Assembly: GCA_028456385.1 (NCBI GenBank)
Contig: JALNQF010000184.1
Coordinates: forward strand, 1-64,000
Direction: 5' to 3'
Origin: Ophiosphaerella korrae
Taxonomy: Eukaryota > Ascomycota > Dothideomycetes > Pleosporales > Phaeosphaeriaceae
DNA: 64,000 nt
The position numbers and the translations under genes are program-made. Of the stretch, positions 42,765-64,000 are shown in pieces. Each line of letters starts with the position of its first letter. The first letter of the stretch is position 1. The notes under the pieces are model-generated. The model was not told where the DNA came from and did no database searches. It saw only the letters and a program-made list of their open reading frames with translations.

Positions 42765-43470
42765 AGTCAACAATATGTGCGTACAATCCAACAACGCAGA
42801 ATTGAAATGTCAAACTGACTGTCGCCAGCTGAAGGATATCGCAATCCTCAAGTACCATATCCGAGGGTCTGGACTGCCACACTATAGAGATGCACTAGCC
42901 GCATGGGGAATCAACCGAGCTACAAGCCTAGAACTACTAGATTGTGGAGGAAAAGTATACACGCAACTTTACCATTTACGCATGCTCCCAAGGTCACAGA
43001 ACTTGACTCACTTTCCTTCTAGACAATCATCCAGACCCCATGGCATCTTTGTATGAGCCCTACTTGCAGCCCCCAACCGCCCTTACTAGGATCGTCAAAC
43101 CTTCCACAAAGCCATTGTCAGCCTGGCCATGGACGCCTCGGTGCCGCAATATTAGCACTTGCTTGCCTAACTAGCACAACAGTAAGCTTTAGGAAGCGTT
43201 TTGGCGGCTCTCGTCATCGTTCATGCGGGGCGGCGTAGATTCGTTTCGATTCTAGGGGTAACGTGGGGCTGAGTGCAAGAAGGTTTTGTGCGCTGGGAAC
43301 GGGGGTTTGCAGAGGCGCCAGATAAACAATTACAATCAGGTGTGGTGGAGCCGAGTGGTGGACGCTGGGTTTCTGGGCGATGGCGCATATCGATATGCGG
43401 CAGCGCCCGGAGTACGGATAGGCTTGTGATACTGTCCGGCTAGCACGACCTAGATACGGCGAGGCAGCAG
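42765..43470. other. AIM6 upstream region up to the mobile island
   Basis: About 700 bp of normal base composition. It holds the AIM6 promoter; AGCGCCCGGAGTACG at 43401 is also present at 41370, probably chance. No gene seen. The composition change to AT-rich begins only about 350 bp inside the inverted repeat at 43471. Confidence 0.45.
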
Positions 43471-43506
43471 GTCAACTGACTATGGATTTGCCTCGGTTGA
43501 GATGGC
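43471..43506 (+). repeat. Left copy of 36-bp inverted repeat
   Basis: Starts GTCAACTGACTATGG and ends GGTTGAGATGGC. Its reverse complement is found without mismatch at 56141-56176, 12.6 kb away. A perfect 36-bp match in a 64-kb window is far beyond chance. Confidence 0.93.
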
Positions 43507-43755
43507 GCCAAACCACAACAGGCATATTAACCGCTTTCAGCTGAAAAATAAAATTCTCATCTCAACTGAACGAAAGTTCATAGTCAGATGAACTTTTCTC
43601 CAACAATAGATCAACTCGATAGCTCATTTATGCTATACAACCCATTCAGCATTCAGCAACCAACTTCCACTGATATTGACCCAAGTTTCGAAATTGGTGA
43701 TGAGTTTGCTTCGCCTATATACCCAACTGGCAGCAATAATAGCAGTGGTGACCAG

Positions 43756-46700
43756 GTACAAACGAATGAAACGTTATCTAAACGTGATTTTAACATGTTC
43801 TAGGATGATAGGATACTTTTTACTGCTGGTAGTAGTCAAGGAGGCCCACTGACTGCAGTAGACGTCCGATATGTCCCTGCAGTTCCTATGTATCCTGAAT
43901 GCTTAGAGAATGGGCTAGCGTACGTTGTTCCAATAATCAGGAAAAGTGATAGGAGCTTGCCGGACCATAAGACAATCCTTAGCCGCGCAATTGAGGTACA
44001 AAGACATAGATCATGTTTAGAACGCGTACTAAACGTGTTCTAGTTCCAATATGCAAAAGTCTCCTGCTACAAGGGAAACTAGACGGTCTCTCCGTTCTTT
44101 AATAACAAACCTGCAATACAATATAAGTATTAGTGCTCTAGGATTAAGCACTGCGAATATCTTAAGGATAGCCTCAAAACGTATTCCCATACTACTGTTG
44201 ATGATACATATTAGGATATACTTAAGAGATTGCGGCATATCCTAAAGGATTCAGATAGTAAGGCAAAAGCTATTAGGTAAGTACAATAACATGTTCTAAT
44301 CGCGATTCTAATATACTTACGTTAATGATGGTAGCACATATATTGGAATTAATCGACGATTCGAGTTAGGGGTTTGCCTCCACCGCAAAGAGACCTGTAG
44401 CCCAATACTCTACTAGCAGCGCTAAAGAGTAAGAATAGAGGATTACTTAAACGTATTATAAACGCGTTACTAACACGATTAGCTACTTGCAGGAGAGAGG
44501 CTATATTTTATCGCGTGTCGGAGCTAGGATTAGCGTACATTAAATACAGAGAAGCACTTTACTACTCCTGTAAGTAATATAGTTAATATTAGTTACTTAA
44601 AACAGTTATTTAAGTTTAGGTTAAGTAGAGAGGATTAACTAGGATAGTTATATGTTATCGTTGAGCCTATGATAACAAGGGCTACAAAATGCAGTAGGTA
44701 AGATAAAATATAATACTAACACGTTAATAACGTGTTTTAGACATCAATTACCCTCAAGGTATTAGGACTCTTGTTAAGAAGTCCTATAAGGTTTATTACT
44801 ACGTAATAATACCTATAGACTTTAACAAAGTGCTATACTTTGTACTAATTGCGTTTAGAATATATATATATGTACCTCTACCTCTAAATATTATTAGGGG
44901 AGAGGTAATTGCAGAGATTAAGGTAATACTTCGACCTATACTTACACTAGGTTTAACAAGATGTAAGTAGGAAGTAAAACGGGTTTGCAACGCGTTTCTA
45001 ACATAATATAGTGTAATTTCTTAATTCTACACAATTAAAAGCGTATCTTACTTAGTATAGCCTTTAATCTGTCGAAGATCTTTATATTGCATTTGTAAAT
45101 AAAGATCGTATATCGTTAATATTAAAATAAGAAAAGCTACTCCGCTTCCTACACTAAAGTAGTATAGAAGGCGTTGTATTTAAGTAGAGAACAAAGTATT
45201 AGATTCTAGAAACTGTAAGAATATAATTGTAACACGATCTAAACGCGTTTTAACAACAATACTAGGCATATATTTAATAGATTATCTCTAGCGTATCTAG
45301 TAATATTGTGCTCTATTTTTATAATAAGTAGGCACGAGTACTACTAGATTAGAAGACATTTTAGATAGATATATTATATAAGAGATTAAATAGGAAATAG
45401 GTAGAGATCTTAATTACGATATTTTACTTAGGGCATAATAAGTATAAGGAGAAAATATAAAATATGTTTTAAACGCGATAGTAACTTGTTTTAGTGCTTA
45501 CCCTAGGTAGAATTATTACTAATAACAACTCCCTAGAAATATATCAACTAAGCTTTATTGCTTACTTCAAGCTTATTAGCGAGCGTGCAAAGAAGCTAGT
45601 ACAATAGTATTATATCTATTAACGTAGATTTTACGGTACTACACTTGATATGTGCAGTAAGTAGATACTTAGTAAGAAGAAAGTATATCGCGTTTAGATC
45701 GCGTTTATAACTTATTTAATAGGACTTAGCTAATATCTCTATATAATAGACCTATAATAGAGAGAGTAGAGATAGTAACTCTAATCTTGTATTTAATTCT
45801 ACTATATTTACTTCTTAAGGAGTATTAATACTATAATTTAGCGTACTCCTTATTATATAGATTCTACCTAGGGTTGTATAAAAGCTCTCCTTAACGTTAA
45901 ATTAAAAGAGGAGTATTTTAATCTTTATAACTTGTTAATAGGTAAGTTTAAACAATTAAATACAATTAGAACGTATTTTAAATATGTTTTAGTATATAAA
46001 GAGACTCCTACAATTTAGAACTAGGCTAAGAACAAGAAGAACAAGGTGTTTACTACTAGGTTAGTTTAATGTTATAGCTAAATAAGTAAAGAAGTCTAGG
46101 ATATATTAGAATTACATACTAATACTACTAAATAGGCTAGGTAAAAGAGATATCGAATAGGTATCTATATATCGCTTATTAAGGCTATACAAAAGTAAGG
46201 TAAATTGTAGAAATAGGTTTATAACGTGTTACTAACGCGTTTTAGTGTAGCTTAAATAGATCTCTAGGATATAAAGGAGTTTAATACCTATAATAAGTAT
46301 AGTATTCGCTATACCTATCGTGCTACTTTAAGTCTAAGCACTTAATACTCTCCTAATAGAGGACGTAAGAGAAGTATAAAATATTATTATTACTAAAGAA
46401 ATATATACACTAAAATAGCTTTAGAACGTAAATATAATAACTTTAAAGACGCTTATATTATCTTAGATAATAAAGATAATCTTATAAGCTCTATAGAGCT
46501 ACTATAGCGTAATAAGTAGATAGCTTTAAAGTTATAAAACGTTTAGTTATAAACTTAACTATAATTGTTACTACTAAGCTTACTAGCGTAGTTACTATTA
46601 AGAGTAACTACTATACTAATATAAGTATTATAATATTATAATATATTTAAAACGCGTTACTAACGCGTTCTAGCCTAATAAGTGCGTAAACTCTCTAAAG

Positions 46701-47600
46701 ACAGGCTATTCTCTTAAGCTAGTTACTCTTAAGCTAATTACTCTTGTTTAAACGAGAATAGTTAGAGATCTAGAAGTTAAAACTTGAGTTAGAAAGAGAG
46801 AAGTTTAACTTAGAAAAGGAGAAGCTTGTATTTAAGTAGGAGAAAATTAGATTATAATATAAAGAGGCTTAGAACGCGACCTAAAGATATTCTAAATATA
46901 TTCTAGTGTAGAAAAATTTTCTTTGCTTAAAAACTCTATTTACTATAACTTGCTTCTCTCTATCTTTCTCTTCTATCTCTACTTATAATATAGAGAACAA
47001 GATTTTACTTCTTATAGTATATAACTAGATTATGTTTTATATACGTTCTAAACTAGTTTAGCTAGTATATTAGAGATATACTAAATTAGCTTCTCTACTA
47101 GTAGGTACACCTAAATTTACTAAGAATGTCGATAGCTTATATACTATATATCCTAGCGAGTTATTCTATAGAGCAAAGTAGACCCTATATAATAAGTAGC
47201 TATATAGAGTACGTACTTAAACATAATCTATATGTGTTTGTAACTCGTTCTAATATTATACTAGAAGAAATTTAGCAATTAAAGTGCTTTAGTTTACTAT
47301 ATCTAGCGAGGCTATCTATTGTATAAGGTTAAGTCTGTTAAGACTAGGCGACGTTTAATTTCTAACGATGCTAATACTCTCTACTTCTACTACGTAGTAG
47401 TTATACCTAGAGATCTATAGTTAAAAGAGTTCTAGAACTTATCCTAATTACGTTCCTTATTAATTCGTCTTATAGCAACTCCTTAACAAACTATTAAGTA
47501 TAACTAAATAACTAAAGAACTTAAAGAGGAACTTAGAAGCTAATTAGAAGATATAGAACGCGTTATAAACGACTCTAAAACACGTTCCTCTACACTAGAT
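43756..47600 (+). repeat. Array of near-identical short introns, left arm
   Basis: Candidate introns on the forward strand: 43756-43803, 43996-44043, 44277-about 44312 (acceptor apparently mutated TAG to TAA), 44429-44482, 44698-44740, 44963-45011, 45215-45265, 45442-45494, 45672-45722, 45942-45992, 46195-46245, 46625-46673, and less clear ones ending near 46910, 47264 and 47597. Lengths cluster at 43-54 nt. Donors are GTAAG or GTAYA. The 3' halves are alike: AAACGCGTT, then ACTAAC or a near form as branch site, then ACGTTCTAG or TTTTAG. Exonic spacing is mostly 175-235 bp. No other gene in the window has introns with ACGCGT. Confidence 0.72.
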
Positions 47601-47737
47601 CTACTTTCCCCTCTCCTACCTCTTTTAAAATAATAGAAGCGGTTATATATATAACCTCGTGTAGAAGAGGAGATTACTCTATTACTACTAGATAAGGCTC
47701 TTCCTAAGAATCTTATTCCTATACTAATATACTAAGC

Positions 47738-47742
47738 TAATA
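47738..47742. repeat. Target-site duplication TAATA (left)
   Basis: Five bases TAATA just outside the left LTR, repeated at 54771-54775 just outside the right LTR. It marks a single integration event of the gypsy element into the host element. Confidence 0.85.
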
Positions 47743-48172
47743 TATTACTAGCTTACTAGGGTCGACTTCCTAATAGCCTAAAGGAGTGTTAGTAGATTGT
47801 AAGGTAATAACAAAAGCTTATATTATAATCTACAATAGGCTATAAATAATAGAAGATATTTTGCAACTATCTTTATATTATTACTTATAGTTAATAATTA
47901 AATTACTAATACTATCCTAATAATGCGCGTCGCTACTAACTATATACTTGTCCTAATCTATTAATCTATTACTACTAAGAATAATAGATCGTAGATTACT
48001 TTAATCTATAATCTATTAATACTAAGAGTCTATAGATTATAGATTATCTTAGGTGTCCTAATTATATATAGTTTCCTAATCAAGTTTATATTCTTTGTGT
48101 TTGTAAGAACTTAATCCTTTAGTTATAGGGCTAATTAGTTCTATCTATATTTCTCTTGTTACTATTATAATA
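47743..48172 (-). repeat. LTR (3' LTR of the reverse-strand gypsy element)
   Basis: 430 bp, same length as the copy at 54341-54770. Left end TATTACTAGC corresponds to TGTTACTAGC in the other copy. Differences between the two are almost only C/T and G/A, consistent with RIP. Confidence 0.9.
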
Positions 48173-51100
48173 CTATCTCTTCCTCTAGGCGGGTCTTCGT
48201 TTATTCGTCCTAGAGCTAAGGTTATTAACTTACTTTCTTTGTTAATTTCTAGTTCCTTATTACTCCCTATAGTTGCCTCTTCTATACGTTGTTAATATCT
48301 TCTTACTAATTGCGTATTGCGCAATAGTGTTAAAATATTTTCTTATTCTTATTATACTTCTTCTAAGTTAAATCCTAAGTGCTCTCTTTATATAGTTTCT
48401 ATAAATAATAGTAGAGCTTATAAGGCGTATATCTATACAAATATTTGTAGTTTCTATAACGTATTTAGTATCTCTCTTGTAGAGTATATATTTATTATAC
48501 TTATTCTTGTATCTAGGCTTAATAATAATAGGGAGAGCTATTAACTAGGCTTAAGAGAAATTACTATCTTAAATTATAGAGGCTAAAGCTAAGCGTAAGT
48601 AGATCTAAGAGCTTGCGTAGAGTAAGCTAGTAAAGAATTAAGCTTATCTCTCTTATTTTTATAAGATAAAGGCGCTAAATAATAAGAAATTAGCTATATA
48701 GTTAGTAGCTCTAGAAGCTAAGCTAGACTTAGATAAGGTATTTAGTATTGCTATAGTAGGTCCTATATTAGGCGCTCCTATTACCTCTCTATCTAGCGAT
48801 AGTAATATTAGTTCTCTTAGTTTACTACTAGGCGTTCTAGAGGGTTTTAACTTTAGAAGTCCTCTAGTTTCTTAGGGTAGTTAAGATTGTCTTTTAGTTT
48901 CTATATTTCTTCCTATAGTTGTCTTTTTCTATCTATACCTATCTATTTTACTAGATAGTAGTTCTTGCTATTATAGAACTAGTATACTAAGATTTCTTTA
49001 ACTTTTTATTCTTCTTATTCTCTATATATATCTACTTTGTACACTAGTAGTTCTGCGTTTTATAGTACTATCTTAAGTAGTGCTATATAGAAAGTTAGGT
49101 GTATCCTTATTTTATTTAGTAGCTTTAGTTTAAATATAACTAGCGTAACTTCTTTCTTAATTTTGTATAGTCCTATCTTAACGTAGTCTAATTTTAAGCT
49201 TAGTCTCTTACTCTTAATGTTTTTCTATACTAACTATACTTTTTCTCCCTTTCTAAATTAGGGTTCCTCTTTATATTTCTTGTTATAGTACTTTGCTATT
49301 TAATTATATAGGAATTCTATATCCTATCTTAATTACTTGTATATATCTTTAAGTCTATTAGCAAAGTTTTCTCTTTTTAGAGACTAAGATATCTCTAGTC
49401 TTAGTATTCTATATATACTAGGGTTAAATCTATAGTTTATAAAGAAAGGTAATACTCTTGTTATCTTATTCTTTGCGCTATTGTATACTAACTATACTAT
49501 AGGTAGTAACTATACCTAGTTATTCTAGTTATAATTAAGGTAGTATCTTAAGTATTATTCTACTATCTAATTTATACATTCTAATTATCTATCTATCTAT
49601 AGGTAGTATGCTATTAATATTGTATATTTAATTCCTAATTATACTATTATTGTTCCCTATAGTTTTAATATAAATCTTACGTCTCTATCTATAATAATTT
49701 TATCTAGTAGTCTATATTAGCTAATTATAGTTCCTAGAACTTAGTATACTATAACTTCTATTCTACTTTTCTCTTTATATAGTCTAAAGTATAAGTACTT
49801 TATAAGTTTATCTACTATTATTAGGATTCTATTGTACTTAACTCCTAATATTAGGTTTTTTAACTTAGGTAGTTTTGTAATAAAATCTATTATAATAACT
49901 CTCTATAGTTATTTTAGTACTTCTACTAGTTATAGCTTCCTGTATAGTACGTGCCTATTATATTTATTCCTTTAGCATTCTATACAATCTTGTAGTACTT
50001 CTATTACTAGTTGTCTTACTCTTAGGATATAGTAATCTCTTAGTAGTCTATCTAGTATTTTGTTAATTCCTTAATATCTATATACTAGTAGTTTATAGAA
50101 CTATTATATAAATTCTCTTTGTATTTTTCCTAGAATGTACGTTCTTCTATAGGCTTTTGCAAGACTTTCTTTAATTTTAAGTTTTTTTATCTCTTTAGAG
50201 GCTTTCTTTATTTCTTCCTAAATTTATTTATTTAGCTCGCTACTCTTTCTTTTAAGTGTTGCAGCTATTTTAAGTATATTTAGGACTAAATATCCTTCTT
50301 TGTTTTTAACTAGAACTATACTAGTAGCGCTTACTTCTTTCTATAAGTTTAGTCTTCTACTAAGGGCGTCTATAAATTAGTTGTCTTTCTCTTTTGTATA
50401 TATAATTTCTATATTAAATATTAATAGGAATTCCTACTATCTTGTATATTATTATATTAGTTCTTTATTTAGTATAAATCCTATAAGATTCCTATAGTCT
50501 ATATAGACCTTTATTTAGTATTTTACTCCTTATAGGTATACTCTCTATTATTTAAATACTTTATAGATTACTAGTATCTCTTTGTTATAAATTAGATAGT
50601 TAAGCTCTACTAGCTTTATTTTCTTAGAGAAGTATTTAACTAAATACTCTTTCTTAGTCTTTAGGTCTTCTTGTATTAGTACTATTCTATAGACTAAATT
50701 AGATGCGTCTGTTTTTACTATTACTAGTAGGTCTAAGTTATATATTCTAATAACTAGGTTTTCTATAAACTTCTTTTTAATCTTCTTAAATACTTTGTTG
50801 TATTCCTTTATCTATTTAAATAGTATATCTTTTTTTATAAGCTTTGTTATTAGTTCTATATCTTTAGACTATCTTACTATTAACTTTCTACAAAAGTTAG
50901 CTAGGCTATAAAATTATTGTACTTCCTTTAGGTTCTTAGGTATTAGCTATTTGTTAATTAATCTAATTTTTTCTAGATTAATCTTGATTTTTCCTAGTTC
51001 GATAATAAATCTAAGGAAGTCTATTTCTTTTATATAGAATTTACATTTTCTTATTTTAAGAAATATCTTATTTTCTACTAGTCTTTCTAGCACTTTGTAT

Positions 51101-54100
51101 ATATGCTATACGTGTTCTTCTTTTGTTTCTAAGAATATAAGGATATTATCTAGGTATATAAATGTAAATATATCTAAGTACTCTCTTAGTACTGTGTTTA
51201 TTCTTTCTTAGAAGGCTACTAGTACGTTTATTAAGCTAAAGGGTATAACTAGGTAGTTATATAGTCTATATTATATTCTAAACGCTATTTTCTATTTATT
51301 ACCTTTCTTAATTCTAATCTAGTAGTAGGCGTTTTAGATATCTAGTTTTATAAAGATTCTTACTTTTTATAGTCTATCTTGTATTACGTCTATTTATAGT
51401 AAGAGATATTAGTTCTTACTTATAATTGCGTTAGTTTTTCTAAAGTTTACGCAAGGTCTTTTATCTTTTATTCTCTTTTTATCTACGAATATAAGTCTAT
51501 ATACTACTAAGGACTTAGATTCTTGTATTTATCTTTTCTTTAGTGCGTTTTTGATAAACGTTTATTTAATCTTAGATTCTTCTTCTATTTTTCTATAAAC
51601 TAGGCTCTATCTTACGTCTTTATCTTCCTTTAGATCTATCGCTAAATCCTATAGTTAATATTCTAGAAGGTAATCTTTAGGTTCTATAAGCTATTTTTCT
51701 TATTTCTTATGTTCTTCTAGGAATTCTCCTTTGTGTGTAGCTATGTTAGCTTTTAATATTTCTTTCTTAGGGTAGCTAATTTTCTCTATTCTCTAATTAA
51801 TTCTTAGGTTAGTTATTTATAACTATAGTATTCCTAGTATTATATCTTATTTATTATTAATTGTTGTTATATCTATAACTATATTCTTAATTGTTATCCC
51901 TTCTAGTTCTAGTGTAGAGGGTATTATCTTAAACCTTATAGGTTCCTAGAATAGTTTTCCTTTAATTATACTTAGTTATTAAGGGTACTTCTTTGTAGTA
52001 TAAGTTATTCCTTAGTTTTCTACAAACTTCTTTAATATAAAGTTCCTTGTAGCTCTACTATTAATTATTAATTATACTTTCTTTCCTTAATAAGTACCTA
52101 TCTTCGTAATATATAGGCCTCTTATACCTTCTAGCCTTTCTTACTTTAGTATTTTTATAAATTGTCTATCTTCTTAAGGCTATAGCTCTATTTTAAGTTT
52201 ATATTCTTCTTTATATTTTAGATATTTGTTGTACTTGTATTTGTACTATAGTCTTCCTTAGACGCATTTCTTAAGTAGTTTTAGTCTAGGCTTTATTACT
52301 ACGTAACCTTCTTCTAGTATTATTTCTTATCCTTAGATATCTTCTACTAGAATTACTTTTATATAGTTGTAGCCTCTTCTTCTTATAAGCTATACTTTGT
52401 TATTTACTTTAGAGTTTCTATATATTATGTAATTCTTCTCTAGGTATAATATCTATAATACTTTAAAATATACTAGGTACTTAGGATCTATTATTTTATT
52501 ATCCCCTTTCTAGTAGCTATCTATTCTAGGTTTTATATTTATTAGAACGTAGTATACTATTAGTATACGTAGTGTGTAAGCTTTATTAATCTATCGCGTT
52601 TTTTTTATAAGGTACTACTATTCCCTTTATATAAGTATCCTTCCTACTATAACTATATATTACTTTATCTATTTTTAAAATAGTGTAAACTTTATTTCTT
52701 TAGGATTACGTTCTTTCTAGTCTTTATACGCTTCCTCTATACTTATAACTAGTAAGTATTTCTAAACAAATTTCTATTCTTTGTTTTATTTCTCTATATC
52801 TATTATCGTATAGCTATTATAGCTATATATATCTAGCTAGGCGTACTCTATACTTCTTATACTAACTTATCTTTTACTTTCTTATAGTCCTTTAGAGAAA
52901 GCTATAGTAGTCTCTTTATCTAGTACTAGTCCTTTAGCCTAGATTAATAGGGTCTAGAGCTCTTCTCTTTCTAAGTCTTCTATTAGTAGGTCTATTACAT
53001 ACGCTATTTCTTCTAGCTATACTTTTGTTCTTTCTTTTATTACTACTACTCTATTTCTTTATAGAAACTATCCTACTCTCTATTTACTAGAAAGATATAT
53101 ATAGTAGTTGTCTTTGTAACAAAAGGTCTAATAGAGTATTACGTATTGTATTTCTTTACTCCTAGCTACCTTTTCTTAAGGTTTAGCTTATACTTGTAGT
53201 GTTTCTTTCTTTTTCTCTATTATCTTTAACTAAGTTTCCTTGTCTTTTTTATAGTCTTTACTTTTATATTCCTTTATATAGTGTCTTAGTTTCCTATATT
53301 TATAATATACTATATCCTTTTTCTTCTTTAATTAGTAGTCTTTCGCGTAGTAGCCTTTCTTACTATAGTTAAAATACGTAAAGTCTTTGTTCTTCTTTTT
53401 CTTTCTATCCTTGTTTACGTTAAGGATTATAGGGTCTCTAGTGTCCTAGTTTCTAGTTTAGCTACTATACTTGTTCTTTTTCTATTCTTAAAGGTTGTTA
53501 TTAATTTAGATTACTTATTATTTTAGGGCTTTTAGTGTCCTAGGTTTCTCTATATATATTATTTTATATTAAATTTTTACGTTTAGTCCTTGTTTAAATT
53601 GTAATATAAGGGCTAATTTATTCTATTCTATGTTTTAACTTAGTTATTTAAATTATAATACGTATTCTAAAACACTTTTGTTTTGTGTAAGCCTTTTAAG
53701 TTTCTCTTTAGCTTATTAAGTAATATCTATATCTCTAAATACTACTCTTATTTGTTTAGTAAAGTATTTATAGCTTCTAAAAATAGCTCTAGTTTTATCC
53801 TTTTAGGTTATTAGAGAATACGTTGTGTAATCTATCTAGTAAGGCTCGTACTATCTTATTACGTCTTCTTTAAGGTGTAGTCTAATATATATTACCTTCT
53901 TTTCTTCTATATTAAAGTATAGTACTTATACATCTATTTAGAGTTGTGCTAACGCTATAAAGGGTCTTAATTTCTCTCTTATTCTATTAAACTTTTTAAG
54001 AACAGGTATCTTAGGTAGTTTCTTTATTGTACTTATTTCTAGTCGTTAGGTAATTAGCTCTATCTAGTTCTAGCCTTTAATAATAGCTTTAATTTGTACT

Positions 54101-54340
54101 TTGTTTTATTTTAAGTAATCTTATAGTTCCTTGTTCTACATTTCTAATACTTTAATTACTATCTTTATATCTTCTTTATTGTTAATTAGCTTATTTATAC
54201 AATCCTTAATTGTTTCCTATATAGTGCTATCTAACTTATAACTACTCCTAGGGGCTTTACTTGTTAAACTTTCTACTATTATATTAGCTAGACTATGCGC
54301 TACTTACGCTTTGCTTCTCGTAATAACTAAATTAGTAAGG

Positions 54341-54770
54341 TGTTACTAGCTTACTAGGGTCGACTTCCTAATAGCCTAAAAGAGTGTTAGTAGATTGTAA
54401 GGTAATAATAAAAGCTCGTATTATAATCTATAATAGGCTATAAACAATAGAAGATGTTTTGCAACTATCTTTGTATTGTCGCTCGTAGTTAATAATTGAA
54501 TTGCTAATGCTATCTTAATAATGCGCGTCGCTACTAACTATATACTTATCTTAATCTGTTAATCTATTACTACTAAGAACAATAGATTGTAGATTACTTT
54601 AATCTATAATCTGTCGACGCTAAGAGTCTATAGATTATAGATTATCCTAGGTGTCCTAATTATATATAGTTTCCTAATCGAGTTTGTATTCTTTATATTT
54701 GTAAGAACTTGATCTTTTAGTTGTAGGGCTAATTGGTTCTATCTATATTTCTCTTGTTACTATTGTAATA
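54341..54770 (-). repeat. LTR (5' LTR of the reverse-strand gypsy element)
   Basis: 430 bp, starting TGTTACTAGC and ending TTGTAATA on the forward strand; inferred original termini TGTTAC...GTAACA. It is less mutated than the copy at 47743-48172 (for example GTCGCTCGTAG here against ATTACTTATAG there). Confidence 0.9.
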
Positions 54771-54775
54771 TAATA
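54771..54775. repeat. Target-site duplication TAATA (right)
   Basis: Matches TAATA at 47738-47742 on the other side of the gypsy element. Confidence 0.85.
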
Positions 54776-56140
54776 ACTTAAAGCGAGGGTAAGTTAAAGG
54801 AGAAGCAAGTATCTATTAAAACGTCTTTATATTACATTTATAACACGTTTTAGGTTAATACAAATAAATACTACTAACTTCTTACTAAAAAAAATCTCCC
54901 TCCTATATATAAGGTTTATAACAAGAATAATAATACAAAGTGTATTTTTATAGGGTCCTATATAAGTAGATAGTACTTTAACTTTATATAGAGTAACTAT
55001 ATAATAATATAGTAGATCTTTTATTAAAGAAAACTACTAAACTAAAACCTCTTATTATCTATTTACTAGAGAACACGTTTTAATCTATATTAAAACTTGT
55101 TCTACTAATCTACTAGAAATTAGCTTAGATCTTCCTCGAGATAGCTAGTATAAAGATACCTAAATCTCCTACTAATTAATATTCTTACAATGTTAACTAC
55201 CCTCTACCCTATTACTATGTTTATTAATGTTAAAATCGAATTCGCATCCTAGAACGTGTTAGAAACGCGCTTTAAGTATATTCTAGTATACTTACTAGTT
55301 GTGTTATTCCTAAAATTTTCTTTGCACGTATCGCAAGGTACAACCTAGCCTAAGCGCCTAGAATAGTTACTTATGCAATTAAGATCAAGCTATAGCTATA
55401 TTAGAACACGTTTGAAACAGCTTCTAAACTTGTTTTACCTTAGTGCTAATCTTAAATAGGCGGATTTTAGGTAGATCTTTAGAGAGCATCTAATGTAGCT
55501 AGCGCTGTTGCTCTATCCTAATAACTCGCTTATCTAATACATGATTATACTCTTCTATAACCCCCTAGTACTAATCTAGAACGTGATTAGAACGCGTTTA
55601 AAACGCGTTCTACACACTTACCTATTAATAGCGCGAGGATGCTGTAGTGAATCTGCCCCTTAGTATTCTTGCATAGCGCAATGTTGCTGTATCTGTGCTG
55701 GTTTTTAATGTGAGTTCTTAGGCTACCTCTTGTACCTAATTTTCGCTATATTAATTAGAATATACTTAAAACGTTTTGTAAACATGTTCTTACTCTATAG
55801 ATGCTATTGCCTACTGGGGCCCTGCAAAACAACTCTCCGATCTCCACCACTAGGTCGCTGCTGTTGTTGAGCTGAAATGGCCCCAAGCCTTGAGGTGCTG
55901 ATATCAGGTTGATATAACGTTAGTAGTTATGCTAGAACGTAATTAGAACAACTTTGTAACATGTTTCATTAACCTACGTTTTGTGCTAGAGTCTTGTAAA
56001 CTATTTTTTGGTAGTGTTGTATTGTGTGCGTGGGAACGTGTTACGAACGTGATGTTAACGTGTTGTAAAAATGTTGTGTTGGGGCTGAGTTGAGTTGAGC
56101 TCGCTTAGAGCTGCGCACGCGCCAAACCTAGCTTGGCATT
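54776..56140 (-). pseudogene. Right arm of host element: reverse-strand gene relic
   Basis: From about 55100 to 56000 the introns fit the reverse strand, so a second gene opposite to the left-arm gene is implied. Exon-like stretches remain near normal composition at 55800-55930 (reverse reading includes ISTSRLGAISAQQQQRPSGG) and 55620-55740. The first 80 bp (54776-54853) instead hold a forward-strand intron and must belong to the interrupted left-arm gene. No domain was recognised. Confidence 0.45.
54809..55977. repeat. Array of near-identical short introns, right arm
   Basis: Forward-strand intron at 54809-54853 (or from 54789). Reverse-strand introns at 55249-55295, 55396-55438, 55576-55621, 55746-55793 and 55932-55977, 43-48 nt each, with GTAAG-type donors in four and TTCTAG or ATATAG acceptors. 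The one at 55576-55621 reads GTAAGTGTGTAGAACGCGTT, then TTAAACGCGTTCTAATCACG and TTCTAG. These share the same ACGCGTT boxes as the left-arm introns although the host gene is on the other strand. A further motif cluster at about 56025-56065 is less clear. Confidence 0.65.
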
Positions 56141-56176
56141 GCCATCTCAACCGAGGCAAATCCATAGTCAGTTGAC
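56141..56176 (-). repeat. Right copy of 36-bp inverted repeat
   Basis: Exact reverse complement of 43471-43506. It reads GCCATCTCAACC...GTCAGTTGAC on the forward strand. Confidence 0.93.
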
Positions 56177-56570
56177 ATGCCGACACAGATACGGCTACGC
56201 ACCATGAGCAACTCTAAGTCCATGCCGGACCTCGCAAATATTTGAGCAATATCCCCAAAGGTCAACGTGATAAACAATTTACTCCCAGCACTTAAAAATA
56301 TTACAGCCCGAACTAGTAGCGCAAGCTGTTTGGGTCGCCGTACTGGTTTAATCTCTTTATCATTGCAATGATTGAACGTTACTTTATATTTGCATTACGG
56401 AATAATTAAGCTACTATATTAGCTACACTTCAACAAGGAGTTTAGCTTTTCACCCTTTGCATTCTGAATAAAGCATGAGATCTGTTGTTCTACTACTAGC
56501 GCCAAAAGGTAGTAGCACTGCGCGATTGTGTCGGTAAGCAAAATCCTCAGAATCGAAGAATTCATGAAGC
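56177..56570. other. Boundary between mobile island and kinase relic
   Basis: About 390 bp of mixed composition. On the reverse strand at about 56493-56512 it has CTACTACCTTTTGGCGC, the same CTACCTTTTGGCGC word found on the reverse strand near 34075. No gene seen. Confidence 0.4.
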
Positions 56571-57410
56571 TTACAACAAGGGCGGAAGAGAGTATATTAG
56601 ATGGCTTGCTCGTTGGTCCAAAGGTGATTGCTTGAGGGCTTCTCTACATATAATAGCCTAGCGATTTATTAATCAGCATTTAGCCAGGCATGTATTTGGC
56701 ATTTTCAAGGTCTGTAAGTTGGGTCTACTCAGTAATTATCTCGCCCTGGCGTTCTTTCCAATTGATCGAAATGATGTCTGGCTTGATTTCAGTCTACGAT
56801 AAGTCACTTCTCGTCGCTCGATAGTGGGACGAACGTCACCCTTATGTAAAATGTCCTGATCATGGAGTTCTGCGATTCCGCACAGCGTGTCTTTCAGGGT
56901 ACGTCTTTTTGCTGCTATAGACAAGTTCTTTTGAGCGAAGAAAAGGAAGTGGTCGTCGAAATACGGGAATATGAACATAGACTTCTCGGAGATGGTGTCG
57001 TTGCTGAGGCGGAGATGTTTAGGGCTGCCGCGAAGCCTGTTGTTTACATCTTCGGGGAAGTAGTGGAATTTGAATTCTAGAATGGGTCTTAGGATGAACT
57101 TCTACTCGTTTGAACTACGGGGATGGTAAGTGCGTAGGTTGTAGTGAGGAAATGATTGGTTCACTTGCGTTGCGGAGTAGACTTGGCACAAGGGATCTTT
57201 TTCCTCTTGGGTCACCCGCTTGACATTACATGGATGACCGGATTTTCCAATCGACCCCTTAGTGCCTGCTGGTACTGTTGATGCTGTGCTTGTATTGCGG
57301 CGGGTTGTGGGCGGCACCCATTTTGTGAGTCGCGGCCCGGTGGAACCTAAGCATGTGCGAGCTCTGCAAGAGCGAGCGGCTAACGCAGAGATGGAACGTA
57401 ATGATAGCAT
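56571..57410 (-). pseudogene. Decayed protein-kinase-like gene
   Basis: Exon 1 (about 57148-57410) reads MLSLRSISALAARSCRARTC and ends QEEKDPLCQVYSATQ. After a 63-nt intron, exon 2 continues KFILRPILEFKFHYFPEDVN, SNDTISEKSMFIFPYFDDHF, RRTLKDTLCGIAELHDQDIL and HK, the position of the catalytic-loop HxD. Here the frame is disrupted: DIISINWKERQGEIITE appears in a shifted frame, followed by a TAG, TQLTDLENAKYMPG, a TAA, and RSPQAITFGPTSKPSNILSS, where intact relatives have the activation-loop and 'WRSPE' region. So one frameshift and several stops break the C-lobe. The family is the fungal kinase-like group with an N-terminal leader; substrate unknown. Confidence 0.72.
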
Positions 57411-58149
57411 TGGATGCGAAAACTTTAGAGAAGATCGTGATTCAGATGCTGTTCATGTCGCACTCTACCATGGCGCCCAAGAGCTAAGAGGACAAGGTAA
57501 TTCATTGACACCGAGCCTTCTAACAAGAATCGCAAGTAGGCTGGTGCCGCTAGTGGTCTCATTCACAGAGGTAGTCAATTGCAGGAAAATCTACTGGAAC
57601 CCGTCGTCTGTTGTGTGTGCCTCTGCTTTGCAGCGGAGTATGTTTGGGCTACGCATGTTTATAATTGAGAAGGAAGCCCGTGGCGAATCACACATGTACC
57701 CATGACTCGCTCATGCATTCGACTAGCTTGGTTCCCCTTAGCCTCACGCATGCACACACGCTCCACCTCGCACTTCGCTTCGACCACGCCTCCAAATCAC
57801 CTCACCATCTTTCCACCCGCACCAGGCAAGCCCTTGAAAGCCATCCGCCGGACTTGCGTCACATTGCTAAATATTCGAGCGTGACACGGGCATTGCGGGG
57901 GTTTCATACAAAGACCAATTTGTGCGATATTACAAGGCTCGCGGTCTAATTTAGGACTAACACGAAGATGCCAACATGGCTTTTCACACCGACATTGATG
58001 TATACCGCATGTTTGCGCCCCACCTCTCATGGACGTGCAGTGTGCATCTACCAGCCTATTCATTTCCGAGCCGTACAAATATTGACCGCTTGAGCTTTGT
58101 GTGCTGTTGATTTTGCGTTCTGTGCGCTGCTTACCTTCGTTTACCAGCC
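57411..58149. other. Intergenic region
   Basis: About 740 bp of normal composition. A forward frame at 57262-57705 is antisense to the kinase relic and has no resemblance. A CACGCATGCACACACGC patch lies at about 57746-57762. No gene recognised. Confidence 0.4.
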
Positions 58150-58694
58150 ATGGCTAAAGATACCTCGTTCCGATTATGCATTGCTGCTCTGCTTATTATT
58201 CAAATCGCATGCTGGATGTTGGCACTTATTGATCTTTTTGTTCCGGGGAAACCAAGGGTGTTTGTGAGGACGACAATGGATGTTATTTCGCAGGTTTTTG
58301 CGAGGAGATCGACGGCGATGTTGTTTTACGAGGAATTTAGGGGCGCATTTTGAAGTCATGGAGAGTTCGAAAGGAGGGCTGGGAATACTTTCGAGTTGTG
58401 TTTGGAGGGTTCACGTCGACAGAAAGCTGGATGCGACACTACATGAAATGGGAATACGGGAAACGACATATTAACAAGCACATGTGTGCTTGGTCTACGT
58501 TCGCCTGTCAGTTCACGAGAAAAGAAGACCTGTGCCGGCAAGCTGGCGAGGGATGCCCGTGCGTTGAGGAATCAGGATGCGAACAACCGCGACGTACAAT
58601 CACCGGCATTGAACGAATATCGAGAACATCATCAGCGTCATCATCATCACATTACACTGATCTGAGGATGGCTCGGTTGGTGCGAATAGCATGA
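58150..58694 (+). CDS. Hypothetical small membrane-anchored Cys-containing protein
   Basis: Tentative two-exon model: 58150-58293 and 58341-58694, 165 aa. Exon 1 reads MAKDTSFRLCIAALLIIQIA and CWMLALIDLFVPGKP, a signal anchor or membrane helix. The exon 2 frame (KSWRVRKEGWEYFRVVFGGF, SWMRHYMKWEYGKRHINKHM, CAWSTFACQFTRKEDLC, GCPCVEESGC) has eight cysteines and a Ser/His-rich tail. The 47-nt intron has GT and TTTAG ends but no clear branch site; without splicing the product would stop after 67 aa. No family recognised. It could be a lineage-specific secreted or membrane protein, or a chance frame. Confidence 0.32.
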
Positions 58695-59372
58695 ATACGC
58701 GGCAAGCAAGCCGCAACTGGATCATACATACCGACAAGATCGAGGTTGGATACATGTTTCAGGGAAGGACACAACAGTCATAGAAAATCTAGTACTAAAA
58801 CTTCAATTATCACGCCGTTATTACATGTGTGAGAAACTAGTTACTTGTTTGAGGGTAAACTTGCGGTACTCCATAGACAGAATCAGGACAATCCAGGCAC
58901 AACCTTGTTTCCGTTAATCTGGCCTTTGTGCAACAGCCGGCCTATTTTAAGACCTAGATGTTTATATCATTGAATCACATTTCAGAGGAAAGGTATGATG
59001 GTGCGCTCGACTTGTGTGCACAGACAATGGAGAGGCATGAGTCATTCCTGGAACACTACGGCAATACCTTTCTTTGCAACAACGCTATTATTATTTACAT
59101 TATTCGACGAGCTTGTAGACGTACAGGAACTGGGTTGTAGGCAACAAAAACTACTCTAGCGCCAATGAAGATTACACATTTGCTGTAGCAACCCAGGAGA
59201 CTAAATGCTTTTCAGAGTCTGTCAAGTATAAGTCGAACGGCATATGATGATCAATACAGCCTAATTGTGTTCGCAGTCAAGGCCATGGTGAGCCAATCTC
59301 AGTGAACACGCAGTAGAAAATCTCTCCAATATGGCCCATCTAAACAATTACCGAACCTTAGGTGAGCATAAT
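58695..59372. other. Intergenic region
   Basis: About 680 bp, slightly AT-rich. A 60-codon forward frame at 58958-59140 is not supported. It should contain the 3' end region of the DUF1996 gene. Confidence 0.4.
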
Positions 59373-60730
59373 TTACAAACTTGGTAGCTCTTTCATCCAG
59401 CCTTCAGCGTCTTCATGCACTCGATTCTTCACAGCACAACTGTTGCCAGCATCAGGCTGTTGCGTCTTCAAGCCTCCGCAACTCGCACCCATGCAACCCT
59501 TCGCTTCATCCATAGCTTTCTGAAGCGACTGATCTTGCCAACCAAAGACGTAATCACCATGCTGTCCGTATCCAGTAGTGTCTCCAGAGCTAAGAACAAA
59601 TGGTTGACTGCCATCTGCCGGCCAGTCCGCCTTGTTGTTAAATTGACGAGTGTCCCAAACAACCTATAGAGGAGATTAGTGTGACTTTTGTTGAGTAAAA
59701 GGCTGGCATACCTCGAGCATGATCTGCGGGATTTTGACGGGATGGGTCGAGGGGCAGTCCCCGCCTACACTGGTACCAGTGAATGAAGCCGGTCCATTCT
59801 TGGGATAAGCCACGTGGGACTTGTGGTCGGGACTATCGAGGTTCACGCCATCCCAGCAACTTATGGAGCATCAGTATTGCAAACAGTTAAAGGACTTTGG
59901 AATCTTACGTCGGGTACAGGATGTTGGATCGAATACCACCTGGACATGGATTCTTGGGGAATCCTTCTGTATCCAACTTTGCATCAGCGCAAGGGGCAGC
60001 ATTATCTCCACCAAAGTTTGGTCCGCTGTAACAGCGGAAGCATGTTTGCATCTTCAAATTCTTGCTGACGCGATTGGCAGCGTCGCCGACCAACATACGG
60101 AAGCCCTTCACAGCTTGTCAGCGTGGTTCAAAGGAACTCTCCACACTCTACATACTGGCTTGAATGCTGTCACTTTACCCTTGCCAGGTGACACATAGTA
60201 TACAACAAAGCCGCCGTGGGTCTTGCCAGTATACTTGTCGTTGAAAAGATCTCGGTTGGGAATCTGAGGTACACGCTTGTATGTCCCGTTTCGCGCCTTG
60301 AAATAGACATTGGCTGTCCAGTAATTACTCAACTAATGGCCATGTGAGATGTTTTTGTCGTAGATTACAAGACCCTCAGTACAACTTACGTCTTCAGAAT
60401 ATCCACATGTGGTACAAGTTGCAAGTTTTGAGATATCGGTGGACGCCATCGAGACGTTGAAGGCATTACCGCCCACAACTGTAACGTACAAAAAAGAAGT
60501 TAGTATATATGTTTGATAAAAATACAGAGGTGCTTGCCTTGATGCATATGAGGTGAGGGTGCCTGTCCAGGATTGACGAGCGGGTCAATACGGTCAATGA
60601 CCACCTGAGAGCATCCGAATCGTAGCATGGTATATCCACTACCCCCAGACTGACGTGATTCGAGGTAGTGGCCTGTTTCGGCCTTGGGCAAAGCCTGTGC
60701 AAGGCCCGCGAAGAGAAGAGCAAAAAGCAT
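59373..60730 (-). CDS. Secreted DUF1996-domain protein
   Basis: Six exons: 60538-60730, 60390-60478, 60156-60332, 59909-60105, 59712-59859 and 59373-59663, giving 364 aa. A signal peptide opens it (MLFALLFAGLAQALPKA). The DUF1996 domain follows: LRFGCSQVVIDRIDPLVNPG, SPHMHQVVGGNAFNVSMAS, CTTCGYSEDLSNYWTANVYF, VPQIPNRDLF, AFKPGFRMLVGDAANR, CFRCYSGPNFGGDNAAPC, GGIRSNILYPTCWDGVNLDS, PDHKSHVAYP and HGDYVFGWQDQSLQKAMDE. Family members are fungal extracellular proteins of unknown function, often expressed during growth on plant material. Intron 1 (60479-60537) uses GC-AG (AAG|GCAAGC) with an ACTAAC branch site. Six cysteines in the C-terminal half are spaced as in relatives. The gene lies about 3 kb from the mobile island. 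Confidence 0.92.
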
Positions 60731-61811
60731 GGCGGCTATCAGGATTTTGACTACCTAGATAGACCAAGTGACGATGCGCAAATGATCCTGATGTGAGCGA
60801 AATGGTGATACGTTACAAGGAGAAAGACCTCGAAGCGAGAAGTCGTGGCCGCCGCTTTCATACTTCTAGGTTTTGGCCACTTTTAGTCCAGACACACATC
60901 CTGCCAAATCCAAGCTTTCATAGTGCAACTGCCGGATCTGACACAAGTGCTTTCTACCCTGTATAACTGATATTTAACCCACATGGGAAGCGTGGTAACC
61001 GTGTTACCCAAAAATGTTGGTACTTGTGGGGCGTTGATTAGGGTAATATGCGTCCTGGAAGATAACCCTGTCATTGGATCGCTTCAGGCATATTTTAGAT
61101 ATTACTGTAACATAACCCCAGATTCTAAGACATGTGGGGTGGGTTCGGGTCACCGCGATCGACAGAATGTGTAGGATGGGAGTGTGGGGTTGCAGACTTA
61201 AGAAGTGAGTGGCCAAGTGATTCCTGACTAAGATGCTGATGCCCAAAACCACCCATCACTTTGAGGTGAATACTAAGGAGCTCAAAGAACGACATGCACC
61301 TTGATAGATCTTCGAGTTACCGTAGGCATAGTTCTATCTGGTAGTTTGTACTGGAAATGGTCGCTACACTAACTTTGCGCAGTATATCCTGTGCATAGCT
61401 CCAAGACATCTATTTGCACTTCTCGCCATTTTTTTGTATACAGAGAATCGCGGTCCCCCAAAGTAGTCCAGAAAGAAAGGCGAGTGAAACTCTAGGCCGT
61501 GAGGAGCAGGAACACTTCGAAAACTGTTCCGCCACAGCTCCTTGCCACAACATAAAATGCCCAAAATGTTTGAATAAATTTCTAGTATGAATTAACGAGT
61601 GTATAAAAATAGTATGCGTCGTAACGGCTAGTGTTGCGTCTCCATAGCAATGATATGCGATTGTGAGAAGGAATTGCATTGAAACATTGATATTTTTCAC
61701 ATGACCCAGACGGATTATCAAGATAAACTACGGATCGATTTGTAATCTTTCCAGTAGAGTGATACCAAGCAACATCGCTAAAAACTGTCGTTGCCCTAAA
61801 CATCATCGCCA
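60731..61811. other. Intergenic region with one unsupported short frame
   Basis: About 1.1 kb. It includes the promoter of the DUF1996 gene (60.73-61.0 kb). A reverse frame at 61582-61818 (MLMAMMFRATTVFSDVAWYH, YLDNPSGSCEKYQCFNAI) has a weak signal-like start and two nearby Cys and directly follows the phospholipase gene; it might be a decayed small secreted protein but no family fits. Confidence 0.35.
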
Positions 61812-62319
61812 TCAACAAAAGCCGCCCCCTCCAAGCAGCCTAATAGCACCGGCATAGGCAAGAGCGAAAGCTTCACAGGCATCCTTTTTATCATGGGTAG
61901 CACACTCATCCTTCATATCATTGTGGAAGAGTTTGTCAACCTTGAACCGTTCCATACTGCTACAGCGGCCCTGGTGTATGTAGTTGCGATAACCAAAATC
62001 ATGGCGAAGACAAGATTTGTGGACTACGATGAATGAGGATTAGCATCGCAGTCAGTCATCAACGAATGAGGGATAAATTACAGTCGAATCCAAATGGATT
62101 ATCTGGCACATTTGTACAGCCATCGGACTTCCAGTCGAGATCCTTCGTTTCAGTAAGTCTCTTGGACCGAATGTCGACGAAGTTAGCGAGTGTTTCCTTG
62201 TAAAGATAGTAATCCGTTGTTTCTCGTAAATCGACCTGAATCTGCCTTGGGCCTTTTCGTGGTTCAAGCTCGACAGTACAACACACGAGAGCAATGACAG
62301 GGAGCCATGAGAAGTGCAT
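61812..62319 (-). CDS. Secreted fungal phospholipase A2 (group XIV type)
   Basis: Two exons: 62082-62319 and 61812-62023, giving 149 aa. Start MHFSWLPVIALVCCTVELEP is a signal peptide. The prokaryotic/fungal PLA2 pattern follows: TLANFVDIRSKRL, DWKSDGCTNVPDNPFGFDF, then CLRHDFGYRNYIHQGRCSS, with catalytic His-Asp in C-x2-H-D-F-G-Y, and YAGAIRLLGGGGFC at the end. Cysteines that form the two family disulfides are present. These enzymes cut the sn-2 acyl chain of phospholipids, calcium-dependent, outside the cell. The 58-nt intron (62024-62081) kee​ps frame GFD-F-HKSCLRHD. A 17-T run at about 62331-62347 lies just upstream of the start. Confidence 0.9.
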
Positions 62320-63818
62320 GATGATTGCTTTTTTTTTTTTTTTTTTGAATTTTTTAGAATGGTCGTTGAGATAAAAAGCAAAAAGCTTTCGGGATATACT
62401 TACGTACTTTATGTCCATAAAGTCTTATCACACTTCGGCTTTGATAACTCGGCTTTGAAGAGGGGAAATTCGAAGCGCCATGGTTGAGAATGCGTCCAGG
62501 GTGTTTCTATGACCATTTCGATGCTCAACAACACTCAGACCTCGGATATTGCTCAAATGTCAAACTGCCATATTTCAGGTTCAATTCTATACAAAATATG
62601 GAGTAAAAGGCTCTGTGACCGTTCTATATAATAAACACATAATTGTATATAATAGCACTGGGAGAATGCACCTTCAGGAGCTATCTTAACATCTTGAATG
62701 ATCCGTGGTTAAAATTTCAAATTGACGGTGTGACCAAATTGCCTCATCGGTACCGTTGAATTTCGTTATGATAGGAAAACTTATGTGCCGTAAGATTTCG
62801 GATAGCATAGGTGTCAACAGTCAACCGACGGCAAATCTTTTGACTAGACCAAGTCTTCAACGGCCCTTAGAAGAGCTAATGCTTTCTTAGTGCAATATTC
62901 GATCCGTGGTTGAACCGATTGTCAATCTTGTATTTGCTATCTAGACACCTTCTTACATTGCGAACGATCTTGCAGTACTTAGTAGCTATTTAATCCTTCT
63001 GGCCCATGATTATCTTTGTTGCAAATAGCACATCTCATTCGACATAAGTTCCTGATTTTGGACCTATTAAACCGCACAGCAAGCGAATATTGTGCGCAAA
63101 TAAGGCTTCGTAGAGACGGTTATCTCCATGTGCATTCTTCCTTCTGAACGTTCTCAATCTAGAGAAGGAAGCTACCACTGGAAGACTATGACAGGATATC
63201 GTTTACTATTAGCGATAATGTGATTTATTATAAGGGCTGACTACTAAGGAAAGAGGTTCGGTGTGGTCCTCTTGAGCTGTAATTTTGGCAGTATTCTCAC
63301 GCGCTGATTGCGTAGAGAGACGTCTCAAGTGATCACTGCTTTCGATTTATAACAGACACTCAGCTGCCTGATTAGCCGACAGATGGTGCTTAGACTCATA
63401 GGGTTCTTCCTCCCAATCATGTCTATCACACCATTGTATCGCAACCAGCATTTAATAAGGCCCAGCTTATTTTGTAGTTCATTTCGCAAAACGTCTGGTG
63501 CCTGTTTCTTGATTCCCAAACACTCAGCAACAATTATCCATATACCGATTACTTTCTCTCTCGACTCCGAACTTGCTTCCAGCTCAGCCGGGTTTTATCA
63601 TGCGGCTAGAACTTCCTTGCGCACTATTGTGGGGTGTTGTCCAGTTTATATACTGAGGATCTTGCGTAATCGACAGTTTCCTCTAATTCCAGGAAAGTCT
63701 TGACTGTGGGTTCCAGGACCCATTTACGATCACCCTAGTCCCACAGCGCAAACAGCATAATCCAGTCCTTCCCTGTGCCTTTGAGGCCCAATGACTTCAT
63801 TTCCGAGAATCATACTGT
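62320..63818. other. Intergenic region with possible gene decay
   Basis: About 1.5 kb. Just upstream of the phospholipase is the T-run 62331-62347. On the reverse strand at 63325-63560 a protein-like stretch reads IWIIVAECLGIKKQAPDVLR, NELQNKLGLIKCWLRYNGVI and DMIGRKNPMSLSTICRLIRQ, open for more than 75 codons, but with no start or partner exon; it might be the decayed continuation of the gene at the right edge. Nothing else recognised. Confidence 0.4.
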
Positions 63819-64000
63819 GTAAAGGTGCTTTGGCGTCCTGAAATCTGCCTTGAGCGCTGCCATGACTTTTTCGTTCTTTTTAGGCTGCCAACTCGTACAA
63901 TAGTAGGTCCCATAATGGTCTGTGTCGCTACCACAACGATGGAACATTGAGCCTGACCCATACATCCATTCGAACGTTTCTTTTCCTTCGGCCCGCAGAA
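63819..64000 (-). CDS. Partial gene at the window edge, unknown product
   Basis: Reverse frame open from the window end for 60 codons: RAEGKETFEWMYGSGSMFHR, CGSDTDHYGTYYCTSWQPKK, NEKVMAALKADFRTPKHLYT. The frame then stops at a TGA inside a possible GTATGA donor (TACACA|GTATGA). Three Cys and several Tyr/Trp suggest a secreted or surface protein, but no family is recognised and the 5' part is outside the window. Whether it is intact cannot be judged. Confidence 0.38.

Follow-up and report, generated by a model that had tools for sequence, protein, structure and literature searches.

A fungal DNA transposon carries about 24 short arrays, roughly one every 230 bp, each made of three AACRYGTT-like boxes at an exact 11-bp pitch. 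We consider it likely that these arrays are docking sites for a DNA-binding protein, probably one encoded by the element, and that most of them are housed in introns, to which they often contribute the branch site. The arrays are real, and most of the segments that hold them are spliceosomal introns by the evidence of reading frames. That a protein binds the arrays, which protein this is and why it binds are what we infer.

The element, its relatives and its genes

Within the window, a 64,000-nucleotide stretch of DNA, the element runs from position 43461 to 56186, further in both directions than the 43756-55977 given in the initial annotation. Its ends read GAGGCAGCAGGTCAACTGAC and GTCAGTTGACATGCCGACAC, and it is flanked by a 9-bp target duplication, AGATACGGC, at 43452-43460 on the left and 56187-56195 on the right. 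The 40-nt core of the left terminal inverted repeat (43467-43506, forward strand) is 98% complementary to the right repeat at 56141-56180 (reverse strand). An LTR retrotransposon nested at 47743-54770 splits the element. This insert has direct repeats at 47738-48037 and 54336-54635 (90%) and a TAATA target-site duplication recognized by eye, and the uninterrupted site is present in L046, a 5685-bp copy that lacks the insert. The nested retrotransposon is outside the array mechanism.

We refer to the window element and L046 as family A. The same genome holds a related family B, represented by an intact, little-mutated copy (L065) that is flanked on both sides by CGCTGACGA, as judged by eye, and whose terminal inverted repeats are 39 nt long and match at 95%. 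Other family B copies lie in contigs C956 and C66. Homology to L065 was used to place gene 2 and the arrays outside introns in the window. Exact ends were found at both sides in five of the 12 scanned sources, and four of these (the window, L046, L026 and L027) have the 9-bp duplication; L050 has both exact ends and no such duplication. Three other terminal-repeat loci, L071-L073, all run out at contig ends.

Gene 1 (43588-46860, forward strand, end approximate) is transposase-like, and its exons in L046 are 39% identical to P0001 over 533 columns. The window copy contains many stops of the type expected from C-to-T and G-to-A changes, as seen by eye. No significant Pfam or PDB match was obtained for the transposase, the Pfam MULE family included. 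Acidic residues and a CxxH motif, assigned by eye, are invariant in five relatives and may mark a MULE-type DDE transposase; relatives P0002-P0005 are from Pleosporales. The 9-bp target duplication falls within the 8-11 bp of MULEs, and the terminal inverted repeats are also as in that group. Gene 2 is C2H2-finger-like; homology to L065 places its 5' part at about 46989-47742 on the forward strand, and it resumes beyond the retrotransposon with a 3' end at about 54776-54880 that includes the third intron. Its product matches zf-C2H2 at E=0.0004, short of Pfam's own cut-off. Gene 3 occupies approximately 54950-56030 on the reverse strand; its product matched no Pfam family, and a search with it as the query found no relatives. 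By eye, the gene 2 and gene 3 products each contain one finger-like motif.

Mutyl of Yarrowia, a fungal MULE (PMC6446971), resembles this element in its 9-10 bp target duplication, short terminal repeats, C2H2 finger and second gene with a DNA-binding role, a role that is putative here. Our element differs in having two extra genes, and the accessible portions of the Mutyl report do not mention intronic box arrays.

Box arrays and the introns that hold them

Scanning the element at a pitch of 11 with a score of at least 16 of 24 yielded 24 arrays, 16 before the nested retrotransposon and eight after it. Each array presents six AAC half-sites in alternating direction. At a strict score of at least 19, we counted 18 arrays in L046, 22 in L065 and four in a 680-bp derivative, compared to means of 0.01, 0.00 and 0.00 in dinucleotide shuffles (100 each, largest value 1). 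Strict arrays were absent from window positions 1-43400 and 56250-64000 and from the nested retrotransposon, and none occurred in families A and B at pitches of 8-10 or 12-15. A looser scan (at least 17, pitches 10-12) gave four matches per strand in window positions 1-43400 and one in the reversed element. The array scan thus bears out the original description of GT...AG segments on both coding strands with ACGCGTT-type boxes 11 bp apart. ACGCGTT boxes do occur, but they are not the typical form: the box in the low-mutation family is AACRYGTT, and just 10 of 72 boxes have a CGCG core.

Introns 1 and 2 of gene 1 (43756-43803 and 43996-44043, forward strand) have GT-AG ends and occupy the places of introns 1 and 2 in L065. 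As first reported, the window sequence reads open and in phase through the neighbouring exons (43588-43755 and 43804-43995), and the matching exons of L046 have zero and one stop, respectively. Reading family A gene 1 from end to end left phases ambiguous at several introns, and little-mutated family B settled them. L065 gene 1 has 82 in-frame stops when unspliced, and removing 13 introns (all GT-AG) turns it into one 878-codon frame, the outcome that the initial annotation had proposed to look for in a less mutated copy. By comparison, 25 shifted and 20 random sets of removals each left at least 15 stops. These introns were identified by a search over GT/AG pairs, with introns 9 and 12 repositioned by homology and by eye; intron 8 has two frame-compatible forms, 2634-2677, which we used, and 2641-2684, seen by eye. 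Another three introns are predicted in gene 2 and five in gene 3.

The gene 1 arrays in the window all lie on the forward strand, in introns 1 (43770-43799, score 19.0), 2 (44010-44039, 20.5), 3 (44288-44317, 18.0, with the acceptor a little further downstream), 4 (44450-44479, 21.5), 5 (44707-44736, 20.0), 6 (44978-45007, 20.5), 7 (45220-45249, 19.5), 8 (45461-45490, 20.0), 9 (45687-45716, 20.0), 10 (45959-45988, 19.0), 11 (46212-46241, 21.5) and, by L065 numbering, 13 (46640-46669, 22.0). Gene 2 has forward-strand arrays in introns 1 (47029-47058, 17.5; L065 4231-4276), 2 (47220-47249, 18.5; L065 4424-4479) and 3 (54820-54849, 19.5; L065 4966-5014). In the gene 3 region, the arrays are on the reverse strand and probably intronic, at 55253-55282 (19.5), 55405-55434 (19.5), 55580-55609 (22.5), 55759-55788 (18.5) and 55936-55965 (18.5). 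With the 2634-2677 form of intron 8, arrays exceed the cut-off in 19 of the 21 L065 introns, whereas shuffled introns averaged 0.06 and never gave more than 1; intron 12 of gene 1 has no good array, its best score being 14. By position, introns account for 21 of the 24 arrays in L065, so the arrays may be connected with splicing in a way that goes further than being tolerated there. The claim of some twenty near-identical introns in one mobile element holds insofar as the frames identify introns, but not as to near-identity, because it is mainly the boxes that are shared.

Arrays outside introns and their putative role in protein docking

Most array segments are intronic, as originally supposed, but three are not. 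One (47557-47586, score 20.5) lies within a gene 2 exon, at L065 4751-4780 inside the open frame ...EDLERVVNASETRSP...; a second (46873-46902, 17.5) falls between genes 1 and 2, corresponds to L065 4077, past the gene 1 stop, and may belong to a 3'-UTR intron; and a third (56035-56064, 21.5) is in right terminal DNA. L005 and L026, two short derivatives, retain a similar array. The weakest array (55072-55101, 17.0), which separates gene 2 from gene 3, is palindromic and could be spurious. Boxes also occur at predicted gene starts: a run of five, with 6-8 of 8 matches per box, leads into the start codon of gene 3, and two, with 7 and 6 of 8 matches, are found at the start of gene 1. The 680-bp derivatives match the full element at their ends only, have 9-bp duplications and contain no frame longer than 50 aa, and they carry arrays both mid-element and close to the right end. 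Two other loci, L074 and L075, match families A and B at the boxes only; both have four-box arrays, and the longest frame in the L075 stretch is 62 aa.

Across the genome, the three-box pattern AACGCGTT, with up to three mismatches, occurs at 28 distinct sites. BLAST of fetched DNA assigned 18 of them to this element group, and the other 10 were placed solely by their closeness to gene-1 matches (nine within about 2.2 kb, C379 at about 9 kb) and their near-identity to the L065 exon array. A search for the AACRYGTT pattern that allowed up to two mismatches gave 125 sites, traced in part, compared to none in a reversed control. Among the sites traced, the arrays are shown to be restricted to this element group.

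A binding function is supported by the strict 11-bp pitch, by half-sites that are kept while the sequence upstream is at background (see below) and by the arrays outside introns. Under this interpretation, each array would be a putative docking site on DNA, with its three boxes about one helical turn apart. The protein that binds along the element would most likely be element-encoded, either a finger-like product of gene 2 or gene 3 or the transposase. Coding DNA would be poorly suited to hold such arrays, and nearly all would for that reason be placed in minimal introns, where a spacer and box would often supply the branch site (CTAA) with the acceptor close behind. As its alternative, the initial annotation had offered repeats bound by the transposase, with splice signals as an incidental feature, and a protein-binding array of this kind fits the data better than the spread of introners that it preferred.

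Work on the VANDAL21 and VANDAL6 elements of Arabidopsis, MULEs that act with VANC proteins, provides the nearest parallel in the literature consulted (PMC5735166, PMC10398659). In VANDAL21, the short motifs that VANC21 is described as binding are found in introns, in intergenic regions and in the non-coding termini (PMC5735166). As far as those accounts extend, VANDAL and this multi-gene DNA transposon share short, element-family-specific tandem-repeat motifs in all three locations, with one array here also exonic. Our element differs in its fungal host, in the three 8-bp near-palindromic boxes, set at a constant pitch of 11 bp, that almost all of its minimal introns contain, in boxes that often supply the branch site and in the even spacing of arrays through all genes. 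In the accessible open-licence literature on introners, fungal Mutator-like elements, anti-silencing and transposase sites, no transposon other than VANDAL was found with such arrays in its introns.

By analogy, our tentative preference is that docking guards the element against silencing by its host, in the manner of VANC at VANDAL elements, and the finger-like genes 2 and 3 are candidates for the VANC-like role. A bolder version, which we regard as rather doubtful, is an anti-silencing system specific to a fungal transposon and independent of VANC, in which the element's own finger protein reads three-box arrays spaced at about 230 bp, splicing is what allowed these arrays to be accommodated in genes, the docking site doubles as branch site and as acceptor in about twenty introns, and intron creation is a by-product of the silencing arms race. 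The next role to consider, possible but on balance unlikely, is that the arrays play no part in silencing and serve instead as sites for assembly of the transposition complex by the transposase or by an accessory protein. Short derivatives do keep arrays mid-element and near the right end, and the terminal inverted repeats of plant MULEs are reported, in the text available, to contain transposase binding sites (PMC3310237), but the arrays are spread through the element body rather than clustered at its ends. If the arrays are docking sites, then these introns are neither junk nor parasites, but store a mobile element's regulatory DNA inside its own genes. Sequence-specific anti-silencing by transposons would, if true, extend from plants to fungi, and new introns could have one origin in binding arrays that are already readable as a branch site and acceptor.

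Intron places in families A and B and less probable readings

The initial annotation proposed a family of introns that spread within the mobile element, that is, introners that copied themselves to many places inside a transposon. We now consider this very unlikely. The array introns are introns by frame and lie on both coding strands, and introners and introner-like elements (ILEs) are reported from fungi (PMC4457414, PMC9860276). As portrayed in those sources, they share with this element the presence of many short introns of one kind per fungal genome. However, 11 introns sit between corresponding exons in both families, A and B, and a twelfth array precedes matching exon 14; no counterpart of L065 exon 13 was found in family A. 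Matched exons 1-12 of the two families are 36-56% identical, and since the exon context agrees for all 12 gene 1 arrays compared, no array is recent by that measure. Nothing is shared over the 12 nt upstream of the arrays, with an identity of 0.326 for orthologous introns and 0.292 for unrelated ones, which is background. AAC/GTT half-sites are kept, and orthologous arrays are no closer in these half-sites than unrelated arrays. Spacers are 0.486 identical in orthologous arrays compared to 0.333 in unrelated ones, and thus drift outside the half-sites has not been total.

Stable RNA secondary structure is a trait of fungal ILEs. The L065 introns had a mean folding z of -0.35, with one of 21 below -2. 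Near-identity over the whole intron, as expected of introners, was not seen in the A/B comparison, and all 28 sites of the three-box genome pattern were placed in the element group or its derivatives, with no traced site in an ordinary host gene. This element therefore departs from introners as the cited papers present them in sharing mainly boxes rather than whole introns, in intron places common to two families, in arrays outside introns and in the lack of host-gene sites among those traced and of RNA structure. The initial annotation had itself named segments that are coding or lie outside exons as evidence against spread, and the arrays of the gene-less derivatives, the exonic array, the one that follows gene 1 and those at predicted gene starts argue against it on those terms. 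We set introner spread aside on the shared places and the background-level upstream sequence.

Equally improbable is that a transcription factor of the host, MBF for example, binds the arrays, which would then drive element expression. The MBF box (MluI box) is ACGCGT, which the CGCG form contains, and the predicted start of gene 1 and that of gene 3 both have boxes. This idea was set aside on the low count of CGCG cores given above, and a promoter needs neither even spacing through all genes nor arrays in gene-less derivatives. The least credible reading is an RNA-level function, with boxes that pair to join splice sites or act as splicing enhancers: pairing within arrays is no higher than in shuffled sequences (139 vs 142.3, 142 vs 148.9 and 149 vs 153.4), the folding values above do not favour hairpins, which we set aside, sense CGTG and CACG are found 11 and nine times, and arrays persist in gene-less derivatives, against which stand the near-palindromic boxes and the position of the best array, which in L065 stops 3-5 nt short of the intron end in 14 introns out of 21.

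Structure and copies of the array-bearing transposon

The whole finding lies within one DNA transposon of family A (window 43461-56186), which has inverted ends and is flanked by an exact 9-bp target duplication, AGATACGGC. Both exact ends were present in five of the 12 sources scanned. Four of these five carry a matching 9-bp duplication, namely the window copy, a 5685-bp copy elsewhere in the genome (L046) and two 680-bp derivatives (L026 and L027), but L050 does not. The putative superfamily assignment of the predicted transposase is based on this 9-bp duplication together with conserved residues identified by eye. The left 621 bases produced at least 43 matches in the 63-Mb assembly. Several contigs (L071-L073, L028-L030) begin or stop inside the element's first 77-85 bp. 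The assembly is thus broken at this repeat, which makes copy counts lower bounds. In the window copy, an LTR retrotransposon that L046 lacks is nested within gene 2 (47743-54770) and divides the element. The two direct repeats of this insert are ~90% alike, and a TAATA duplication was seen by eye.

The array unit consists of three 8-bp boxes, one beginning every 11 bp. The 72 boxes of L065, a copy of the related family B, give the consensus AACRYGTT, in which the A at the start and the T at the end hardly vary, the remaining half-site letters are strong, and the two centre letters vary within R and Y. The 24 arrays of L065 are spaced at a mean of 230 bp (coefficient of variation 0.37). Requiring a score of at least 19 of 24, we counted 18 arrays in L046, 22 in L065 and 4 in L026, and dinucleotide shuffles gave means of 0.01 or less. 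No array of this strict class was found at other pitches in families A and B, in the remainder of the window or in the nested retrotransposon; a looser scan of window positions 1-43400 gave four matches on each strand. Genome-wide, the AACGCGTT pattern (up to 3 mismatches) has 28 distinct sites, and all 28 were placed in this element group, 18 via BLAST of fetched DNA and 10 solely by proximity to gene-1 matches (one of them, C379, at ~9 kb). The AACRYGTT pattern has 125 sites compared to 0 in the control, and part of these were traced to their source.

Predicted introns at the arrays

The initial annotation proposed that the array segments are introns in a mobile element, and the little-mutated L065 (contig C335) bears this out at the level of reading frames. 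Removal of 13 GT-AG introns from its transposase-like gene 1 leaves a single 878-codon frame, compared to 82 in-frame stops when unspliced. When GT/AG pairs were sought at positions offset by 60-180 bp (25 shifts) or at 20 random sets, 15-25 and 15-33 stops remained, respectively. Intron removal also opens the frames of gene 2 (231 aa, 3 introns) and the reverse-strand gene 3 (201 aa, 5 introns). A direct search with gene 1 found one relative, P0001, which as a query retrieved four named relatives, from Melanomma, Lindgomyces, Lentithecium and Bimuria, all Pleosporales. P0001 is a continuous 656-aa frame, from either a cDNA or an intron-free gene, and is 39% identical to the family A exons over 533 columns. 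The L065 junction across gene 1 intron 6, LTRSQFLNS, is identical in P0001. This alignment across exons provides independent support for the intron calls. Thus, by reading frame, the arrays are mostly predicted introns. Of 21 introns, 15 have a CTRA word 9-12 nt upstream of their end; this word is often built from a spacer plus the next box, suggesting that the array often serves also as the branch site.

Arrays shared between families and outside introns

The same annotation suggested that near-identical introns had spread as introner-like elements. Exons 1-12 of L065 gene 1 all find collinear matches in the family A copy (identities of 36-56%, E no worse than 2e-6), with one family A array in every one of the 11 intervals between matches. 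A twelfth array lies ahead of the exon 14 match; exon 13 did not match that copy. Arrays between the same exons argue that the introns predate the A/B split. Among the 12 A/B array pairs, identity was 0.745 at half-site columns, 0.486 in spacers and 0.326 in the 12 nt upstream, compared to 0.766, 0.333 and 0.292 for unrelated pairs, with the A/B values depressed by mutations in family A. Half-sites kept equally everywhere beside drifted upstream sequence are expected from selection on a binding site rather than from recent copying, and we set the introner reading aside. The spacers apparently retain some ancestry or splice-signal constraint.

The arrays are not confined to introns. By position, 21 of the 24 L065 arrays fall in introns. 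Of the other three, one lies in a gene 2 exon (4751-4780, ...EDLERVVNASETRSP...), a second past the gene 1 stop, where a 3'-UTR intron is possible, and the third at the right end, where a run of five boxes extends into the predicted start codon of gene 3. Two further boxes occur at the start of gene 1. In the 680-bp derivatives, similarity to the full element is limited to its ends; they carry arrays, and L026 contains no frame over 50 aa. By eye, the centre of an internal array-bearing inverted repeat is in opposite orientation in L026 and L027, as if flipped.

Two further loci, L074 and L075, match families A and B at the boxes only and carry four-box arrays. Frames in the L075 stretch are 62 aa at most. 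By eye, L075 also has inverted ends of its own, with a 9-bp duplication. The two copies found belong to another kind of short element, whose ends differ and whose arrays repeat the same word.

Possible role of the arrays and exchange between families

At the RNA level, boxes paired within an array no better than boxes dealt between arrays, and the intron RNA showed no unusual stability. On the sense strand, the two asymmetric forms of the box occur about equally often (11 vs 9). In our reading, a DNA-binding protein would read the AAC/GTT half-sites on one helix face. Genes 2 and 3 each encode one C2H2-like finger, its second part separated by an array intron (by eye); gene 2 has a zf-C2H2 match (E=0.0004) that falls short of the Pfam cut-off, and gene 3 matches no Pfam family. 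Arabidopsis VANC21 binds short motifs located in VANDAL21 introns and in the intergenic and terminal non-coding DNA of this element, which loses DNA methylation as a result (PMC5735166, PMC10398659). The layout of the arrays is of the same kind. Based on this likeness, our first guess is that the arrays may protect the element from silencing; a part in transposition is our second.

Families A and B differ in similarity along their length. Gene 2 and its flanks (L046 element coordinates 3387-4619) share 80% DNA identity with L065 over 1250 bp, compared to 65-71% for alignable gene 1 stretches, which suggests that the families exchanged sequence. A short stretch, L069, has a family B left end fused to a family A right part.
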